Source: a virus
Virus record (IMG/VR): IMGVR_UViG_3300031758_000583
Location: 1-23,487 of that record
DNA: 23,487 nucleotides
Reading direction: 5' to 3' (one strand)
Notes under the pieces: generated by a model
Told to the model about the DNA's origin: nothing
The model's input: the letters and a program-made list of their open reading frames with translations, nothing else
Database searches by the model: none
Position numbers and translations under genes: made by a program
Shown: positions 3,022 to 23,487 of the stretch, piece after piece
How positions within the stretch are numbered: position 1 is the stretch's first letter
Layout of the letters: every line of letters begins with the position of its first letter

Positions 3022-3159
3022 ATGCGCTCTCTCAGCTATCGTCCTCGTAAAGAGGATTCGAAAAAAGAAGAAGTAAAGGAAGTGGCTCCCGTCGAGCAAG
3101 TTAATGAAACTCAGCCTGAATCACTTGATTCTTTTGATGAGTCTGTTGTTATCAGCTGA
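3022..3159 (+). CDS. Small acidic protein, unknown
   Basis: A 45-residue ORF from ATG 3022 to TGA 3157, preceded by a ribosome site AAAGGGA at 3007–3013. The N terminus is basic (MRSLSYRPRKEDSKKEE) and the rest is Glu/Asp/Ser-rich, so it is probably disordered. It is the first gene after the terminator at 2965 and converges with the minus-strand membrane protein gene, overlapping it by 8 nt. No family is recognised. The good ribosome site is the main reason to accept it. Confidence 0.5.
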   Translation: MRSLSYRPRKEDSKKEEVKEVAPVEQVNETQPESLDSFDESVVIS

Positions 3160-3487
3160 CGTTATCGTCGTTTTTTCCCAGGCGACGCTCTAGTTCTTTC
3201 TCGGCTAACCGTTCAACGGCTGCCAAAATTCGGATACCTGCGTAGCCAATAATGAATGAGGTCGCTATGGCCTCATTTTTTGTGAGCTTGAATCTTTCTT
3301 CAATAGCTGGACTTACAAAAGTAGCCAGCATGTAACCAACAAGCGATGCCTTAATTAGATAAGGTATTACCTTTTTTACTCCTCGTGGGTGCGTTAAGCT
3401 TTCGGTGATTGACCCCGAAAAGCAAGCTATTGAGGATTCAGGGTCTTCGAAAAACACCGTAAGGACTCTTTCTATGTGGGAGGACAT
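3152..3487 (-). CDS. Small two-helix membrane protein, holin candidate
   Basis: A 111-residue protein with two hydrophobic segments, at about residues 40–60 (VIPYLIKASLVGYMLATFVS) and 73–92 (AIATSFIIGYAGIRILAAV), and a strongly charged C-terminal tail (RLAEKELERRLGK). Size, two membrane helices and a charged cytoplasmic tail fit a class II-like holin, which would permeabilise the inner membrane and release lysozyme at lysis. An AAGGG stands upstream of the ATG on the minus strand. It is the only minus-strand gene in the first 14 kb apart from the intron endonuclease, so it must have its own promoter or be read by antisense transcription. No endolysin lies next to it; the only murein hydrolase in the window is 12 kb away. 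It could instead be an unrelated small membrane protein. Confidence 0.5.
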   Translation of the reverse strand: MSSHIERVLTVFFEDPESSIACFSGSITESLTHPRGVKKVIPYLIKASLVGYMLATFVSPAIEERFKLTKNEAIATSFIIGYAGIRILAAVERLAEKELERRLGKNDDNVS

Positions 3488-3550: not shown

Positions 3551-4354
3551 ATGGTATACGCTCCTCAAACTAATTGGAAATACGATAAAAACCTTTATCA
3601 TCCGATTCAGTCTGGTCCTCAGCGCACGGGCGACGACTTAGATCTGCGGGACACTTATTTAACGATTTCTAGTGGCTACGTAACTCCTTTAGGGGTGCAG
3701 CAGACTTGGCTTGGCGTTATTGACGAAGGCGCTGATTTTGGGCGGATTCCGGTAGGCCCTCCAAATATTAGTGGATACTTCACGACCGAGTGGCGAGCGG
3801 TTCCTCCTGCTATTTCTGGTTATTGGACTAATTACGAGAACACGCAGCCGCACGCATCTGGCTTACTTGACAGTTACGTAGGTTTCCGTGCTCAGGGTCT
3901 CTACAGCACTGCGAATGCGACTGTCCAGACCGCTTTAGGTCCACAGCCTGGTTTGCGTAATTTTGGCACTCATACTTGGTATGGTGAACAAATACCTGAT
4001 AATCAGCTATATTCTCCTTTCCAGACACCTAGTTCGAACGACAACACACTAGATGGAGGAGGTATTACAGGTGGAGGTGTTACACATCCCTCAGTTGCTT
4101 CGCCCACGCTAACCAACCCAACTAACGACACGTCTGGGTCACGCGCCGCGTGGGTTTATCACTATCCAATTTATTGTCAGTCATTCACCGAGACTCGCTA
4201 CAGCGGAGTCCCTGGTCAAATGGGCTCTCCTGTCCGTAATAGTTATCGAGGCAAGTCACTTCGTTACGTCCCTAATTACGGGTCGGTATATGGTGTCCTT
4301 GGAGAAGGTGTACGAAATATGGTGCGTAGGTTTAGCCCTGGGACTAAGATCTAA
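3551..4354 (+). CDS. Unknown structural-type protein upstream of the capsid gene
   Basis: A 267-residue protein rich in Tyr, Gly, Pro, Ser and Trp with almost no charged clusters. It has repeated short turns of the type NISGYFTTEW (residue 73 on) and AISGYWTNYE (residue 87 on), which look like a duplicated beta-hairpin module. It ends in a basic segment (GEGVRNMVRRFSPGTKI). A CTGGAG ribosome site lies 6–11 nt before ATG 3551. It has no signal peptide or membrane helix. Location between scaffold and capsid genes suggests a virion protein such as a head decoration or connector, but I do not recognise the family. Confidence 0.65.
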   Translation: MVYAPQTNWKYDKNLYHPIQSGPQRTGDDLDLRDTYLTISSGYVTPLGVQQTWLGVIDEGADFGRIPVGPPNISGYFTTEWRAVPPAISGYWTNYENTQPHASGLLDSYVGFRAQGLYSTANATVQTALGPQPGLRNFGTHTWYGEQIPDNQLYSPFQTPSSNDNTLDGGGITGGGVTHPSVASPTLTNPTNDTSGSRAAWVYHYPIYCQSFTETRYSGVPGQMGSPVRNSYRGKSLRYVPNYGSVYGVLGEGVRNMVRRFSPGTKI

Positions 4355-4438
4355 ACCTCTAAAAGTGCGACAACTTGTTGTTCCTTAGGGCTTTTAAAGA
4401 CTTAAGATTACTTTTGTAGTTTCTTCTGAGTCTTATCG

Positions 4439-6680
4439 ATGTTTATCGATAATGATTTCCCGAAGATTCTTGGTGCGGAACTTTACCGTCCTCACCCTGC
4501 ATACATCGTTGAGATGGCTGCAGAGCCGGTTGACAAACCAGCCGCCTCTCTGAGTAATCGGAGAGTGAAAACCCGGTGAATTGCTGGAAACCCTTCTTAA
4601 AAGCTTCAGGCCCTACAACGTAGCCGGCGACGGCAAGCGTGAATGGTTAAAAAGTCTGAAGTCTGGGGCAATCAGCAGCCAAGCCTCTCAGGAATGAGTG
4701 GAAGGTTCATCGACTAGGGCATACGATCCAGACCGGATTATGAAGTCCACTAGCGCCGGGGCTCCCAGTATTGTTCGTAAGCTTTAAGCTTTCGCTCAAT
4801 ACCTAGACTAGATCCTCCGTAAATAGCCTGTATGGCTTTTGCGTCCCTGATGTAACCGGGAATAGAATACAAATCTTTCCCGTTTTTGGTTAGCTCTGAT
4901 TTAATCGGAAGACTTAAGCCACTAACGTCGAGGATCCAAGTCTGAAGCTGGTAAGCAAACTCTAGAGAAGCCGTGGTGACTTTAAACCGACGTTCTGTAA
5001 CGGATCCGTCGCCGTCCCACACTCCTCTTAGAAAGTCCTTTTTAAACTCACGGAGGTTACAAGAAAGTTTCAAAGTGTAGGACTTGTTAGGTGTTATACC
5101 TAACTTAAGTAAATCCTCCACTAAAGACTTTTTACTAAGAACTAAAATTTTTTGAGGGGCACAGTTCCTTTCATTAATTTTAGAAATCTTTGTTTTAAGT
5201 TCTGGAGCACCTTCACCTAAGAACTTTCTAAACTGCTCTAAAATGTTACAATCTTGTTCTTTTAGAGCTATCCTCGCTGCCGTTAATCTAGGACTTATGT
5301 TTCCATCTGCTGCTAACAAACCTAGAAAGTAAGCTTTATCTGGCGTATCGATGATCTCAAAATAGCGATCATTGTAATCCAGAAAAGAGTAAGTCTCTCC
5401 TGATTTTCTCTTACGCTTACCGGTTTGTTCGAAATAAGATGGAATACCTAGTTTCTTCCTAGCTTTATAAAAAGTCACCATCGTTACACCTAGAACTTTA
5501 GCTGCTTCAACATCTGGCATTTTCGAAGCCAGTTCTTGAACAACAGAAAACTCTGGGTTAAAACGTTCAAAGCGTGACATCTGGGAGCAAGATATAGTCA
5601 GTGCCCTAGGGATGAGAAACCTAGGGAGCGGACCCGGACTCAGGGATCCTAACACGTGTTGTCCACGACTTTTCAAAGCAACCCGGCCAGACGGTTCAGT
5701 TAGATCGTTACCGTTTCTTCGGTAACCCCGGCTCCAAAGAATCTCGCGAGCGTACTGCTGAGCAGACCATTGGTACTGCTAACAGCCGCAATATCGTGAA
5801 GGATAAGGTGCTCGTGACGCTTCGCGAGTACACCGGTCCTGCTGACCCGAGTGACCCCACTCAGCCCAGCACCTTCAAGATTGCGCGTGAGACCCTGATT
5901 ACCGCCCAGCGTCTGCTGCTGGACACCGGTAACCTCACCACCTTCCACCAATCGATCGGCAGCCTGACTCTGCTCGACGACTATCGTCGTTGGCGCGACC
6001 GGGTGTTCATCAATGAACTCCTGAAGGCTGTTTCTAAGGGTCAGTCTTCTGACACCCAAGGCGGTTACTACTTCCCTGGTGACCTGGCCACTGGTGCTCT
6101 GACCTACACCAACGCCGAGCAAGCTAAGTTCGACGTTAAGGATGACCTGCTGCGCGTGGTGAAGAGCCTGCGTAAGCGGAACACCCCCACCTTCCAGGAC
6201 GGTTTCTATCGCTGCGTTTGCGATCCGACCTTCCTGATGCACCTGCGTCAGAACAGCGACTTCCGTGAAGTTGCTCGTTATCCTGGCAATGGTCAAATCA
6301 ACCCCCTCATGTCCGGGATGCAGCCCAACGCTGCCCTGTACATGGGTCAAGGCTTTGGCCAAGCCACCTTTGTGGCCGGCGAGCCGATCATGCCCACGGG
6401 CTTTGTGTTTGAAGGCGTGCGCTTCTTCGAAAGCACCAACATGCCTACTCAAACTCAAAACGCGACCATCGCGTCTACCGCCGCTTCCTACAACGCAGCA
6501 GTCGGTATCTTCTTTGGTCCTCAGGCCGTTGGTGTCGGCATCGGTGGCAACAATGCCCAGGTGCTGCTCAACAACAACGACGACTTCAGCCGTTTCATCA
6601 TGATGATTTGGAGCCTGTACGCAGGTTTCGAACTTCTGAACGCTGATTTCGTCACCGTTGGTTACTCTTTCGACGCTTGA
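4439..6680 (+). CDS. Major capsid protein, split by a group I intron
   Basis: The coding sequence is join(4439..4530, 5657..6680), 371 residues. Exon 1 (MFIDNDFPKILGAELYRPHP and about 10 more residues) continues in frame only if 4531–5656 is removed: the last two bases of exon 1 (GT) join the T at 5657 to give a Val codon, producing AAEPVVVHDF. Exon 2 then reads through VHDFSKQPGQTVQLDRYRFF and on to TGA 6678. Reading exon 1 without splicing hits TGA at 4577 after 46 codons, so capsid production needs splicing. The protein is a cyanophage-type major capsid protein, presumably of HK97 fold (inference from family and position). Codons are strongly biased to C-ending forms, as in highly expressed genes. 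It is followed at 15 nt by a second, equally biased structural gene with a strong ribosome site, then a terminator. Confidence 0.9.
4531..5656 (+). mobile_element. Group I self-splicing intron in the capsid gene
   Basis: This is a 1126-nt intron. P1: exon end AGAGCCGGU (4522–4530) pairs with the internal guide GCCGCCUCU (4541–4549) with one mismatch and the required U·G at the splice site. A P4-side AATTGCTGGAAACC (4579–4592) and a Q-like AATCAGCAGCCAAGCC (4670–4685) match the conserved core of phage group I introns. P3 is GCCCT (4610–4614) with AGGGC (4716–4720). P7 is GACTA (4712–4716) with TAGTC (5595–5599), inside the classic AAGATATAGTC element. P8 is TCCAGA (4727–4732) with TCTGGG (5580–5585). 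P9 is CCCTAGG (5604–5610) with CCTAGGG (5620–5626). The last base is G (5656). A P10 of exon TGTT with intron GACA is possible. All core parts are present, so splicing activity is expected; the L8 loop carries the endonuclease gene on the other strand. Confidence 0.92.
4750..5580 (-). CDS. LAGLIDADG homing endonuclease, antisense within the intron
   Basis: A 276-residue protein with two LAGLIDADG motifs, YFLGLLAADG (residues 84–93) and FLRGVWDGDG (183–192), each keeping the acidic catalytic residue (D92, D191), so a monomeric two-motif enzyme that cuts an intronless allele to spread the intron. An N-terminal HTH-like segment (residues 23–47, DVEAAKVLGVTMVTFYKARK) probably helps DNA binding. 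The frame is open further upstream to 5676, but that would extend into capsid exon 2; ATG 5580 is chosen because it sits exactly at the P8 stem base, so the whole gene lies in loop L8. It is transcribed opposite to the intron and capsid mRNA, so it needs its own minus-strand promoter. No clear ribosome site precedes it. AT-rich codons differ from the C-rich capsid exons, consistent with an invading element. Confidence 0.92.
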   Translation of the reverse strand: MSRFERFNPEFSVVQELASKMPDVEAAKVLGVTMVTFYKARKKLGIPSYFEQTGKRKRKSGETYSFLDYNDRYFEIIDTPDKAYFLGLLAADGNISPRLTAARIALKEQDCNILEQFRKFLGEGAPELKTKISKINERNCAPQKILVLSKKSLVEDLLKLGITPNKSYTLKLSCNLREFKKDFLRGVWDGDGSVTERRFKVTTASLEFAYQLQTWILDVSGLSLPIKSELTKNGKDLYSIPGYIRDAKAIQAIYGGSSLGIERKLKAYEQYWEPRR

Positions 6681-6694
6681 GGAGGTAACTAACA

Positions 6695-7573
6695 ATGACG
6701 ATCAACCCTAACCAGATCTCGGTTGCCAAGATTTATCCTGGTAACTACACCAACGTTCTTCGTTACTGGCACGAAGAAAAAACCATGCAGTTCGAGAACG
6801 CCAACGGCGTTCAGACGAGCTACACCAACCAACCCGTTGGTGGCCCCGTGGGCGTGGTGTTCCGTCCCGGTTGGATTGCTCAGCAAGCCATCGGTTACGT
6901 TGACCTGAGCTATCAGGCACTTGGTACCAACAACCAGCTGGATTACTACACCCAGCCTTATGGTTCTGGTCAAAACGCTGCTAATCAGCCTTTCCTGAAT
7001 GCCAGCGTAATCATCCCGTCTCCCGACTACCACAAGGATGTTCGGGCAGACATCACCAACGGTATCACTGCACCTTCTGGTGCCTTTGTGTACCGCACCT
7101 CGCTCCGTGTCGACGGTGGCGATGTGGTTAGCTCTGGTGTTGCAGGTGGTTCTGCTTCTCCTCAGCTGACTCTGATCCCTGCGGTTGGCCAAGGTCTCCG
7201 CAACAACACCACTGTGGTGTCGGGTCAGTTCGGTACCTCTATTACCGGTTCCAACAGCCGTATTGCCAACGGCAGCGTTGCTTCTACGAACATCATCAAC
7301 AGCAGCAGCCTGTCTGCTCTGACTGCTGCTACTCAGTGGAGGCTCTTCACCACTACCAATCTTGGTGGCGTTGCTGCTTCTGGTCTGGCACAAGGTTCGG
7401 GTATCTATGATCCCCGCGCTGGTGCTGGCAAGCTGTCCGGCAAAGACAAGGCACTCGCTATTTGCGAAGTGTGCTGGATTGTTCCCGATGCTCCCCCGGA
7501 GCGTGCAGACCTGGCTCTGCAGCCCGGCGGCATTGTGGAATCCACCGCTTACACCTCGACTTCGCCTTCCTGA
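6695..7573 (+). CDS. Abundant structural protein paired with capsid protein
   Basis: A 292-residue protein directly after the capsid gene, with a strong ribosome site (GGAGGT at 6681–6686, 8 nt before ATG 6695) and the same C-ending codon bias as the capsid gene, both signs of very high expression. The sequence is Asn/Gln/Gly/Ser/Thr-rich and beta-like, without membrane segments, and has two cysteines close together near residue 260 (ICEVCWIVPDAP). Likely a head decoration or other multi-copy virion protein. The family resembles proteins seen next to cyanophage capsid genes, but I cannot name its function. It ends 28 nt before a strong terminator. Confidence 0.75.
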   Translation: MTINPNQISVAKIYPGNYTNVLRYWHEEKTMQFENANGVQTSYTNQPVGGPVGVVFRPGWIAQQAIGYVDLSYQALGTNNQLDYYTQPYGSGQNAANQPFLNASVIIPSPDYHKDVRADITNGITAPSGAFVYRTSLRVDGGDVVSSGVAGGSASPQLTLIPAVGQGLRNNTTVVSGQFGTSITGSNSRIANGSVASTNIINSSSLSALTAATQWRLFTTTNLGGVAASGLAQGSGIYDPRAGAGKLSGKDKALAICEVCWIVPDAPPERADLALQPGGIVESTAYTSTSPS

Positions 7574-13706: not shown

Positions 13707-14407
13707 TGGCTTCAACACCTGTAATTCTTCTTTCTAAGCGCAGCGGTAACTCATCAGATCGACCTAACGCCGCCACGGTTCAGGCCGGTGAACTCGCTAT
13801 GTCCTTTGGGGCGGCGGATCCAGGTCTGTACTTCAAAGATTCTGCCGGATCGATTAGAAAGTTTGGATCAAATCACTACGGAACTACCTCTCCCAACTCC
13901 AGTCCACTCGGTTCGCCAGGTAACTCAGTAGGAGAGTTGTGGGCGGATTCTTCAACTAGTAATTACTATCTCCGTGTTTGGACTGGCGCTGCTTGGCAGA
14001 AGGTCGGTGCCGGTTTTGCTGACACTGCTAACTCAGCCAATACCGCAGTTACGGCCAATAGTGCAGCAACAGCAACTGTGGCTAATTCAACCATCGTCGC
14101 AAGTGGAGCTTTGTCAGCTGTAGTTGCCAGCGGCTCCTTGTCAGCTGTTATCGCTAGTGGCGCATTATCCGCTGTAGTCGCTAGTGGTTCGATCTCTGCT
14201 GTTATCTCTAGTGGCGCATTATCCGCTGTAGTCGCTAGTGGTTCGATCTCTGCTGTTATCTCTAGTGGTTCACTTTCAGCAGTAGTTGCTAGCGGCATCG
14301 CCGTTGTTACGGCATTGCCTGCCGCATCCACCGGCTCCCTTGTTTATTTGAATGCCGGCACTAGCGGTCTGTATGTTTCAGCTAACGGCGGCTGGATTCT
14401 CACATAG
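13706..14407 (+). CDS. Tail-fibre-like protein with 9-residue repeats
   Basis: A 233-residue protein. Residues 1–55 match a domain frequent at phage fibre N termini (ILLSKRSGNSSDRP … AGELAMSF … GLYFKD). Residues 76–100 carry a GELWAD … LRVWTGAAWQKV module that also recurs three times in the gene at 21622. Residues 105–130 are Ala/Thr/Asn-rich, and 132–194 consist of seven tandem 9-residue repeats of the form [AS]SG[AS][LI]SAV[VI]. A final beta segment (GLYVSANGGWILT) ends the protein. This is a trimeric beta-structured fibre or tail needle by analogy (inference). It starts inside the previous stop and overlaps the convergent Dps-like gene by 8 nt. Confidence 0.75.
   Translation: MASTPVILLSKRSGNSSDRPNAATVQAGELAMSFGAADPGLYFKDSAGSIRKFGSNHYGTTSPNSSPLGSPGNSVGELWADSSTSNYYLRVWTGAAWQKVGAGFADTANSANTAVTANSAATATVANSTIVASGALSAVVASGSLSAVIASGALSAVVASGSISAVISSGALSAVVASGSISAVISSGSLSAVVASGIAVVTALPAASTGSLVYLNAGTSGLYVSANGGWILT
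14161..14268 (+). repeat. Perfect 54-bp tandem duplication in fibre gene
   Basis: Two identical 54-bp copies (14161–14214 and 14215–14268) lie within a longer array of degenerate 27-bp units, each encoding the 9-residue repeat. Flanking units differ at many third positions, so this pair is a recent duplication of two adjacent units and a likely site of copy-number change. Confidence 0.95.
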
Positions 14408-14942
14408 AGCCACGCAGCGTGGCCTTCATCATCCAAGCTCCCTTGAATAAGTTGCCGCAGATCTCAGCTGCATAATTTTCGACATCCGGTGCACCTGTCT
14501 GGCGTGCAGCTTCAGTGAGATCTTTTGCCATCATGGCGCCTGCCTCTAGATTTTTAGTGTAGAGAGTAAGACCCTCGCGAGCGTCGTATGTTTTAACGGC
14601 AGGAAACTTTTTAAAGGCGTCGAATAGACCACATTGACACATAGGCATAAGATAGTCCATGCTGCGCACCAGCTCAGCCACAGTGTCAAAGTCAGAAGTA
14701 TGTTGCTGATACTGTTCTTTTAAGAATTCGTGAATCGCCAAGAAGTTAGAGCACTCGACGTTTAGATGCAAAAGGTGAGCTTGTATGTTTAATTGATATA
14801 AATAAGAGGCAAAGGAGACCATCTGATAAACGAGGTTATCAGGCGTGGCCTCCTTTGTGATAACGACCTCCTCCTTAATAACTTCTTGCTTAGGCGCCTC
14901 AGAGGCGTTTTGAAAGATGTCAGCTAAAGAGGAGGTGTTCAT
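14400..14942 (-). CDS. dps-like: Dps-like (ferritin-family) protein
   Basis: A 180-residue protein. After a disordered Glu/Lys-rich N terminus (1–33), residues 36–178 follow the Dps four-helix pattern: HLNVECSNFLAIHEFLKEQY and FDTVAELVRSMDYL align with the E. coli Dps HWN…H…D…D…AE region, and the C-terminal GAWMMKATL matches its final WML helix. Of the five intersubunit ferroxidase residues of E. coli Dps (H51, H63, D67, D78, E82), four are kept here as H59, H71, D86 and E90, and D67 is replaced by K75. Dps proteins form 12-subunit cages that oxidise and store iron with peroxide and protect DNA. An additional C102-x-C104 is present. It is 9 nt downstream of an HTH gene on the same strand and probably in one operon. 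Function during infection (oxidative or iron protection) is inferred. Confidence 0.8.
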   Translation of the reverse strand: MNTSSLADIFQNASEAPKQEVIKEEVVITKEATPDNLVYQMVSFASYLYQLNIQAHLLHLNVECSNFLAIHEFLKEQYQQHTSDFDTVAELVRSMDYLMPMCQCGLFDAFKKFPAVKTYDAREGLTLYTKNLEAGAMMAKDLTEAARQTGAPDVENYAAEICGNLFKGAWMMKATLRGSM

Positions 14943-17994: not shown

Positions 17995-18287
17995 TGAGCG
18001 ATTTCCGGCGTTCACAATCTGAGAGACGTGCGGAATCTTTCGGTCAAAGGAGATTACATCACGTCGATCGAGAGCCAAAGTTTCATCGATTGGCTGGAGA
18101 AATTTTTGGGGTTGAGTCTCGGGAAAGGGCTCGTCAACAGAACAGAGAAGTTCGCTCACGTTTGCAAGCTTCACGCCCCGTGGGCGTAGGCTTTGGTGAA
18201 AAAGATAGTTATGGACCAGATGATTCTTGGGACACGAAAGACCCCATTAAACATACACCCTCCCCAAATTACTATAATGTTCGATAA
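17994..18287 (+). CDS. Small Arg-rich protein, unknown
   Basis: A 97-residue strongly basic protein (RRSQSERRAESFGQRRLHHV and RERARQQNREVRSRL) followed by a Gly/Asp-rich tail ending in PSPNYYNVR. Starts at ATG 17994 inside the previous stop, so it is translationally coupled. Its 3' end overlaps the convergent methyltransferase-like gene by 41 nt. A nucleic-acid-binding or virion-basic-protein role is possible from charge alone. No family recognised. Confidence 0.55.
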   Translation: MSDFRRSQSERRAESFGQRRLHHVDREPKFHRLAGEIFGVESRERARQQNREVRSRLQASRPVGVGFGEKDSYGPDDSWDTKDPIKHTPSPNYYNVR

Positions 18288-18837
18288 ATTGTTTAACACT
18301 TACCTCGTAATTTAGTTGCGGCGGTAAGTAATATAAGAATCCAAACACTTTAGATTTAACAGCACTTAAATCCTGTTCTCTGATTAGTGTTGGTTTTTCT
18401 GCTAACACACACAGCGGAAAGTCGAATCCAATCTTTTGAGTGACTAGCAACGCGACTTCAGTGGAAGTTAAAAATATTATTGCTTGTCCAAGTTCGTTAC
18501 GTAACCACTTCTGATAACACAGTTCTAACCAAACACGCTGCGCTGACTTTTTGAACCTTAATGATTTTTCGAACAGCTTTATATTTTTTGGTTGCTCGTC
18601 TCCTGATAAAACACTTCTAGGAGGATATAGATAAACTTTATCTGCTTTCCACGGCTGGATTAATCCGTTTTCACGCCAAGTGAAGAAACGATCAGCTTGG
18701 ACTATCGAGTTGGCGGATTGACTAGACGCAGGATCTAAATCTATCGAACCTCCAAAGAAAGCCGCTGTGGTAGCAACTACTTCTGGCGGAGATATAAAGT
18801 CAGCATCAGTAAATGAGACCGTTTGAATATTCATCAA
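18247..18837 (-). CDS. Dam-like phage DNA adenine methyltransferase with altered catalytic motif
   Basis: A 196-residue protein. FISPPEVVATTAAFFGGSID followed by LDPASS and a downstream ADRFFT … GLIQPW match the phage N-6-adenine methyltransferase (Dam, PF05869-type) plan: PPEV, GGIDLDPASS, FFT..DGL.QPW. The C-terminal FGFLYYLPP matches the family end. Instead of the catalytic [ND]PPY the sequence reads LYPPRS (residues about 71–76). N becomes Y and Y becomes R, so normal adenine-N6 chemistry is doubtful; it may be a divergent subfamily, a binding protein or a decoy. It overlaps the upstream gene by 32 nt and lies at the 3' end of the minus-strand operon. Confidence 0.7.
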   Translation of the reverse strand: MMNIQTVSFTDADFISPPEVVATTAAFFGGSIDLDPASSQSANSIVQADRFFTWRENGLIQPWKADKVYLYPPRSVLSGDEQPKNIKLFEKSLRFKKSAQRVWLELCYQKWLRNELGQAIIFLTSTEVALLVTQKIGFDFPLCVLAEKPTLIREQDLSAVKSKVFGFLYYLPPQLNYEVSVKQFIEHYSNLGRVYV

Positions 18838-23191: not shown

Positions 23192-23487
23192 ATGGCAAGT
23201 CAGAAGATATCCCAACTGACAGCGATTACAACAGTCGCTAGCGGTGATTATTTTCCTATTGTACGCGCATCAGATGTAACTAACCGACGTGTTGAGGTTG
23301 GTGTACTAGATGCTCGCTATACTTTGGCGGCAAGCGGCGTAGCCGCTCAGAGCACGGCTAATACTGCACTTTCTTCCGGTATTGCTGCTCAGAGCACGGC
23401 TAATACTGCACTTTCTTCCGGTATTGCTGCTCAGAGCACGGCTAATACTGCACTTTCTTCCGGTATTGCTGCTCAGAGCACGGCTAA
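23192..23487 (+). CDS. Tail-fibre protein, N-terminal part (truncated by window end)
   Basis: Starts at ATG 23192 and runs off the window. The first 48 residues (MASQKISQLTAITTVASGDY, then FPIVRASDVTNRRVEVG) match the common phage fibre N-terminal domain, followed by perfect 14-residue repeats of AQSTANTALSSGIA. The domain plan (attachment head then repeat stalk) is that of a tail fibre. The repeat copy number and C-terminal receptor-binding part are outside the window. Confidence 0.75.
   Translation, partial: MASQKISQLTAITTVASGDYFPIVRASDVTNRRVEVGVLDARYTLAASGVAAQSTANTALSSGIAAQSTANTALSSGIAAQSTANTALSSGIAAQSTA
23345..23487 (+). repeat. Perfect 42-bp tandem repeats in fibre gene
   Basis: Three complete identical 42-bp copies (23345–23386, 23387–23428, 23429–23470) and the start of a fourth (23471–23487, cut by the window edge). 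Each encodes AQSTANTALSSGIA, 14 residues, or two heptads. Exact identity at wobble sites means recent expansion; the array could also be collapsed or misassembled in short-read data. Confidence 0.95.

Follow-up and report, generated by a model that had tools for sequence, protein, structure and literature searches.

The window analysed here is IMG/VR virus record IMGVR_UViG_3300031758_000583, positions 1–23,487 (23,487 bases). The major capsid gene in it, that of an S-EIV1-like cyanophage, is very probably interrupted by a group I intron that is self-splicing and mobile and has the gene of a homing endonuclease on its back strand. Comparison with related phages shows a conserved predicted ribozyme structure, an intact and apparently selected endonuclease frame, empty sites, loss of the endonuclease with the intron kept, and low endonuclease divergence in some pairs. 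We infer that the intron is spliced in infected cells and that the endonuclease cleaves. The main features are as follows.

4439–4530, plus strand: capsid gene exon 1; 30 codons and 2 nucleotides (nt), open frame, residues 1–31 align with relatives without this intron
4531–5656, plus strand: group I intron, 1126 nt; match to the Rfam model RF00028, covariation, insertion common to 16 related contigs
4750–5580, minus strand (start 5580, end 4750): LAGLIDADG homing endonuclease gene, 276 residues, in the loop of paired region P8, antisense to the capsid gene and the intron
5657–6680, plus strand: capsid gene exon 2, running to the stop codon; the joined protein matches phrog_1357

A first-pass annotation of this DNA had described a complete group I intron in a major capsid gene, and the covariance model, covariation and intronless homologues all support it. 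The intron and its splice sites stand, but the insertion had been read as a ribozyme alone, and the LAGLIDADG endonuclease gene on the back strand was overlooked.

Capsid gene and ribozyme structure

The capsid gene starts with ATG at 4439, and its first exon is 92 nt long (4439–4530). When 4530 is joined to 5657 an open frame of 371 codons results, ending at 6680, and the coordinates, junctions (4530/4531 and 5656/5657) and reading frame of the first-pass annotation were confirmed. The same holds for its unspliced product, since the unspliced frame meets a stop after 46 residues. Capsid yield would therefore depend on splicing. The frame leaves the 3' splice site underdetermined, since it stays open in steps of three from 5623 up to 5698, where the range tried ended; what fixes the site at 5656 is P9.0 together with the terminal G and the homologues.

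The joined protein of 371 residues matches the PHROG 1357 major head protein (7.2e-24), and its identity as a capsid protein is taken from the PHROG profiles. Its sole match in 50,697 phage records (expectation value (E) up to 1e-5) is Synechococcus phage S-EIV1, with 69.5% identity over 99%; the window phage is a cyanophage related to it. No Pfam match was found at 0.01, and the profile of the protein had no match in PDB at 0.1. An AlphaFold model of the capsid protein, built from a 20-row alignment, was set aside (mean predicted local distance difference test (pLDDT) 32.3). The S-EIV1 record itself has no full capsid gene annotation (KJ410740 60784–62010; L336 5926–7152) and shows a minus-strand frame and a short coding sequence instead. 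There the open capsid frame opens with GTG at L336 6001 and shares its frame with the annotated short coding sequence, whose end is at 7152.

The 80 best capsid relatives are all intronless at this site, and all 80 contain the junction VVVHDF that the annotation had predicted, as does S-EIV1. Seventy-seven match from residue 1 and the remaining three only from residue 5, apparently due to an intron at nt 12.

The annotation had also proposed a covariance-model check. Against 4400–5800 the whole RF00028 model (1–253) matched 4521–5626 with 45.7 bits (E 4.3e-10), placing the U·G pair at U4530. This lies just below the Rfam gathering score of 50 bits for RF00028, and a default Rfam scan is consequently empty. 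Against the whole window the match is partial (model 50–157, E 2.8e-8). When five relatives were scanned at the gathering threshold, two passed (L093 and L095) and three, all with the inserted gene, failed (L083, L084 and L085). The intron of L093, without the inserted gene, reaches 58.8 bits, so the inserted gene probably costs score. L095, with the inserted gene, scores 55.0 bits, but its match spans 299 nt and cannot include the true 3' half.

A structure drawn by hand on the window sequence from known group I anatomy was compared across nine distinct same-site sequences including the window, with the endonuclease gene excised. Standard pairs made up 99.0% of 621 cells over 69 pairs. Ten pairs showed two-sided compensatory changes (22 cells), a number reached by none of 500 shuffles, and controls with slid partners had at most three such pairs. 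P1–P9, P9.0 and the first two P10 pairs are formed in all nine sequences, among them the P3, P7, P8 and P9 pairings, the U·G at the 5' site and the terminal G named by the annotation. P9.1 as drawn fails in two of the nine. The pairs of P1, P3, P5, P6, P7, P7.2, P9.0 and P10 do not vary and are neutral as evidence of covariation. The presence of P7.1 and P7.2 is what we take to mark the intron as IA-like. All elements lie on the plus strand.

4527–4544: P1 (4527–4530/4541–4544); U4530·G4541 at the 5' splice site, paired and invariant in 9/9, same U·G in the Rfam alignment
4546–4552/4559–4565: P2; two pairs with compensatory changes
4572–4576/4756–4760: P3; invariant in 9/9
4581–4705: P4 (4581–4586/4673–4678), P5 (4591–4593/4665–4667), P6 (4679–4680/4704–4705) and P6a; two compensatory pairs in P6a
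4712–4716: 5' strand of P7, GACTA; partner 5595–5599, invariant in 9/9
4717–4748: P7.1 (4717–4720/4745–4748) and P7.2; two compensatory pairs in P7.1
4761–4768: 5' strand of P8; partner 5581–5588, 8 pairs, one compensatory; its complement encodes part of the endonuclease C-terminus
5581–5599: 3' strand of P8 (5581–5588), then AAGATATAGTC with the 3' strand of P7 (5595–5599)
5601–5656: P9.0 (5601–5603/5653–5655), P9 (5604–5610/5620–5626) and terminal G5656; three compensatory pairs in P9, P9.0 invariant

Several points weigh against a self-splicing, mobile intron, and on the side of the ribozyme they are these. The intron in the window scores under the Rfam cut-off. The structure was hand-drawn on the window sequence, which favours the drawn over the slid versions. 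The nine sequences form few groups, so that the 22 compensatory cells represent fewer events, and the shuffles ignore relatedness. A measure of further pair types gave no excess (17 against 20.1 in shuffles). Finally, P1 has only four consecutive pairs and P10 is irregular past two.

The endonuclease gene and its mobility

The endonuclease gene has its start codon next to the P8 3' strand. It closes with the codons for YWEPRR and a stop, which are read from the complement of three ribozyme parts: the 5' strand of P8, the 3' strand of P3 and the joining segment. Bases of the ribozyme core thus also encode the endonuclease C-terminus. The protein matches PF14528 (LAGLIDADG_3; 5.9e-12, 46.1 bits against a cut-off of 22.5), and the longer frame 4750–5676 matches the phrog_4645 endonuclease (3.3e-36). 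Both LAGLIDADG motifs, in the window FLGLLAADG and FLRGVWDGDG, are present in all nine aligned endonuclease rows, and D92, D189 and D191 are invariant throughout. The acidic residues of such motifs are presumably catalytic. Matches were obtained in 155 phage records, all below 60% identity and the best-ranked at about 29%. A bacterial and archaeal genome collection contained 78 stretches fitting two short endonuclease peptide patterns, with no relative among them. The ratio of nonsynonymous to synonymous divergence (dN/dS) is 0.11–0.28 in the 14 of 15 pairs listed, and the gene appears to be under purifying selection.

Sixteen further contigs share the insertion of the window. Twelve of these carry the endonuclease gene, on the back strand each time and 70–100% identical over the aligned part. 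L086, L087, L093 and L094, which are near-identical (0–2 differences over 2,245–2,560 bases compared), have lost the endonuclease and kept the intron; in L093 the residual frame reads MPRFERYWEPRR. The same four have a second insert 17 nt past the first, which in L093 matches RF00028 (E 3.9e-7) and holds a sense-strand LAGLIDADG frame. The 17-nt capsid exon of L093 (10696–10712) is thereby flanked by two introns.

Among the window, L083, L084 and L085, synonymous divergence (dS) is lower in the endonuclease (0.16–0.31) than in the capsid gene (0.45–1.11) in all six pairs. Exemplary capsid/endonuclease values are 0.66/0.23 for the window and L083, 0.79/0.16 for the window and L085, and 1.11/0.28 for L084 and L085. 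This suggests transfer between phage lineages. When these four are compared with L329 and L332, the order is reversed in all eight pairs (endonuclease 0.88–1.12, capsid 0.56–0.95), so that recent transfer fails as an account of some pairs, and an older, separate history is suggested there.

The 8-mer CCGGT/TGT at the insertion site is found in 2 of 77 intronless genes, as against all nine distinct intron-bearing sequences. P1 and P10 need part of it, and it may therefore be the mark of a target requirement as well as of co-conversion. Over nt 61–122 of the capsid gene differences are 0.10–0.11 among five carriers versus 0.19–0.21 in intronless pairs, and elsewhere 0.12–0.17 versus 0.14–0.20, figures that carry no significance test.

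On the proposed mechanism, the RNA of the capsid transcript would fold so that the end of exon 1 pairs with the guide in P1, external guanosine would cut after U4530, and joining of 4530 to 5657 would restore the capsid protein of 371 residues. In a co-infected cell the LAGLIDADG product would then cut intronless capsid alleles at or near the site, and repair of the cut allele would copy the intron in.

Alternatively, the intron may splice but be immobile, its endonuclease gene being a vertically inherited relic. The four contigs that lost the gene and kept the intron fit this, as does the greater divergence of the endonuclease than of the capsid gene in the eight comparisons with L329 and L332, which also weighs against mobility. 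A simple scan of 4300–6000 for sigma-70-like promoters points the same way, as it found none, where 1.7 would be expected by chance. Further points against the main reading are a sense-strand control frame with dN/dS 0.15–0.36, whose third codon positions fall on those of the gene, a poor AlphaFold model of the endonuclease (mean pLDDT 53.6), and PDB profile matches to two chains named V-ATPase (E 4e-5 and 5.6e-5). That low control frame had no listed open frame of 60 codons, and the remaining control frames have dN/dS of 0.77 and above. We consider a relic improbable, since the frame is open in the window and in 12 of the 16 other carriers with both motifs in 9/9 rows, dN/dS is low, and endonuclease dS is 0.2–0.5 of capsid dS in all six pairs of the window, L083, L084 and L085.

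Much less probable still is a disrupted capsid gene that does not splice, whether a dead copy or an assembly artefact. In favour of such an origin, the window comes from a contig collection and not from an isolate. The insertion recurs, however, in 16 other contigs with changed yet pairing sequence, the capsid exons are intact over 371 codons, and the expected decay of frame and structure is absent. That the back-strand frame is a by-product of base composition is the least credible explanation. Long opposite-strand frames do occur in the window (5700–6695), but the PF14528 and phrog_4645 matches, the matches in 155 phage records and the low dN/dS speak against it.

The capsid gene as an intron hot spot

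In some relatives of the window phage the capsid gene is split into two to seven pieces. The insertion points, in nt of the capsid gene, are 12, 57, 92, 107/109, 144, 257, 265, 321, 397, 415, 432, 633, 684, 702 and 831, about 15 sites, of which 257/265 and 107/109 were assigned by script and 107/109 was counted once. The site at nt 415 was read in the sequence of L184 and is shared with L338. From 16 loci, 33 introns were compared with Rfam and 32 matched (19 of 20 at E up to 0.001 and 13 of 13 at 0.01); the one without a match is the nt 321 intron of L264. At 13 of the 15 sites one intron or more exceeds the gathering score, whereas site 144 peaks at 48.5 bits and site 321 at 25.2 (E 0.0039). 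Four introns each are found in L159, L264 (three matched) and L338 (all matched, E up to 0.0039). The locus L207 3637–6302 (IMGVR_UViG_3300020414_002119) has seven exons and six introns, all of which are matched separately by RF00028 (51.7–101.5 bits).

Prevalence was estimated with a DNA pattern in the last capsid exon, which avoids choosing for introns. It gave at least 120 stretches, of which 119 were classified and one was not tied to a locus. Among the 119 classified matches listed, 65 are uninterrupted, 31 have at least one intron, 22 are cut before the gene start and one is unclear; intron-bearing loci are thus 31 of 97 informative ones among the matches listed, a count in which near-identical contigs are unmerged and only part of the 31 were run against Rfam. 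One of the 22 cut loci, L242, belongs to the contig of L084, a carrier of the intron of the window, and L265, counted as uninterrupted, is without its last 20 codons. L314 was left out of the intron count owing to an unexplained 5' end.

A scan of 29 whole records of the lineage, including S-EIV1 (1,851,932 bases, RF00028, E up to 1e-3), gave 27 matches, 26 of them in the capsid gene (24 introns, two matched as halves). Match places were compared by coordinates and checked in sequence for five records. The records were chosen via the capsid locus and some for their introns, which inflates the number of capsid introns; the near absence outside the capsid gene is not due to this choice, but RF00028 can miss gene-split introns. 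The 27th match, at 18.9 bits in G002, falls within an open frame rich in repeats and was attributed to chance.

The insertion points tend toward conserved stretches. Mean identity at them is 0.83 versus 0.72 overall, a value reached by 0.7% of 20,000 random draws, and 12 of the 15 lie above the overall mean; the last four, from nt 633 onward, are near or below it. That so many introns are gathered in a single gene is the less expected part.

Endonuclease class and strand vary with the site. Of 34 distinct intron intervals above 400 nt, 12 have their longest frame on the back strand (sites 92, 415 and 831) and 22 have it in sense (other sites). Representatives of the sense frames at 109, 144, 265 and 321 match LAGLIDADG_2 (PF03161), whereas back-strand representatives at 92, 415 and 831 match LAGLIDADG_3 (PF14528). 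The class does not dictate the strand, since the related Kayvirus endonuclease I-MsaII is encoded in the same sense as its host gene. Both arrangements occur in L338 1358–6108 (record G022), where two of four introns have back-strand LAGLIDADG_3 genes and one a sense LAGLIDADG_2 gene.

It is conceivable, although we hold it rather doubtful, that an intron war is fought in this lineage in the capsid gene alone, with about 15 sites, up to six introns per gene and almost none elsewhere. The back-strand LAGLIDADG_3 genes at three sites could be expressed ahead of the late capsid transcript and without depending on it, which might let a carrier cut the capsid gene of intronless co-infecting phages early and gain in competition. 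The apparent confinement to one gene and the split between sense LAGLIDADG_2 and antisense LAGLIDADG_3 genes pose two questions, namely why this gene is the one affected and at what time the antisense genes are expressed. Gene callers would presumably split the capsid gene in many such phages.

Known systems and other observations

A capsid intron with a back-strand endonuclease gene is already known from mycobacteriophage LittleE (JF937101), and an intron in a phage major capsid gene, called striking in the first-pass annotation, thus has a precedent. There, too, U precedes the intron and G ends it, and the endonuclease gene is on the bottom strand; splicing was shown by reverse-transcription PCR and N-terminal sequencing (Pope et al. 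2013, PMC3706429). The LittleE endonuclease is labelled HNH in the record and the figure legend, while the text of the paper likens it to a LAGLIDADG protein (PMC3706429). In our hands the LittleE intron matches RF00028 with 30.7 bits (E 9.3e-5), under the cut-off, and its endonuclease matches PF14528 (8e-5). Phage and host are unrelated to ours, however, there is one capsid intron, and between the two endonucleases the match is weak and local only (E 0.003 when the two sequences are compared; hhalign probability 1.2%).

Capsid genes with several introns are known from crAss-like phages. In the Delta and Zeta groups, core genes including that of the major capsid protein carry group I introns, and one Zeta capsid gene is in five fragments, three of its four gaps having domains typical of group I introns (PMC7886860). 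In these phages introns occur in many genes, up to 14 per genome (PMC7886860), whereas 26 of 27 matches in the 29 records studied here are in the capsid gene. Huge gut phages likewise have many group I introns in several genes (PMC12363816). The freshwater cyanophage Pf-WMP3 carries a group IA2 intron with an endonuclease gene (I-PfoP3I), but in its DNA polymerase gene and with an HNH endonuclease (PMC3428280).

Kayvirus I-MsaII (JX080304, rec gene) is about 29% identical to the endonuclease over 91% of the query and also lies within an interrupted gene, although this is a recombinase gene and not a capsid gene, and the endonuclease is on the strand of its host gene. Introns of the Didymium S956-2 type differ in belonging to eukaryotic nuclear ribosomal DNA and in their class of endonuclease, the His-Cys box. 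In Didymium S956-2 and other such nuclear introns the endonuclease gene can be antisense to the ribozyme, and P8 is among the reported insertion places (PMC3679873). T4 segD is free-standing and antisense beside the T4 capsid gene (PMC2988022), and in a jumbo phage an intron endonuclease plays a part in the competition of phages that infect the same cell (PMC11620839).

A literature search of partial coverage surfaced the LittleE and crAss precedents and nothing on introns in S-EIV1-like capsid genes, from which we do not claim absence from print. The intron of the window extends the rare set of capsid introns with a back-strand endonuclease gene to cyanophages. Furthermore, one site provides a natural series: empty, with the intron and a full endonuclease gene, and with an intron that has lost this gene and is followed after 17 nt by a second one. 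This makes a cycle of gain, homing and loss testable.

Other features of the window were noted in passing. Opposite exon 2, at 5700–6695 on the minus strand, is a frame of 331 codons that is probably a by-product of codon composition. A minus-strand frame of 111 codons at 3152–3487, amid plus-strand structural genes, had no Pfam match at 0.01. Also on the minus strand, 14400–14942 encodes a ferritin-like protein (PF00210, 4.5e-8), and 18247–18837 has a weak match to Dam methyltransferase (PF05869, 5.3e-4), under the cut-off. At 23192–23485, a frame with repeated SGIAAQSTANTAL units continues past the end of the record and is tail-fibre-like by eye.

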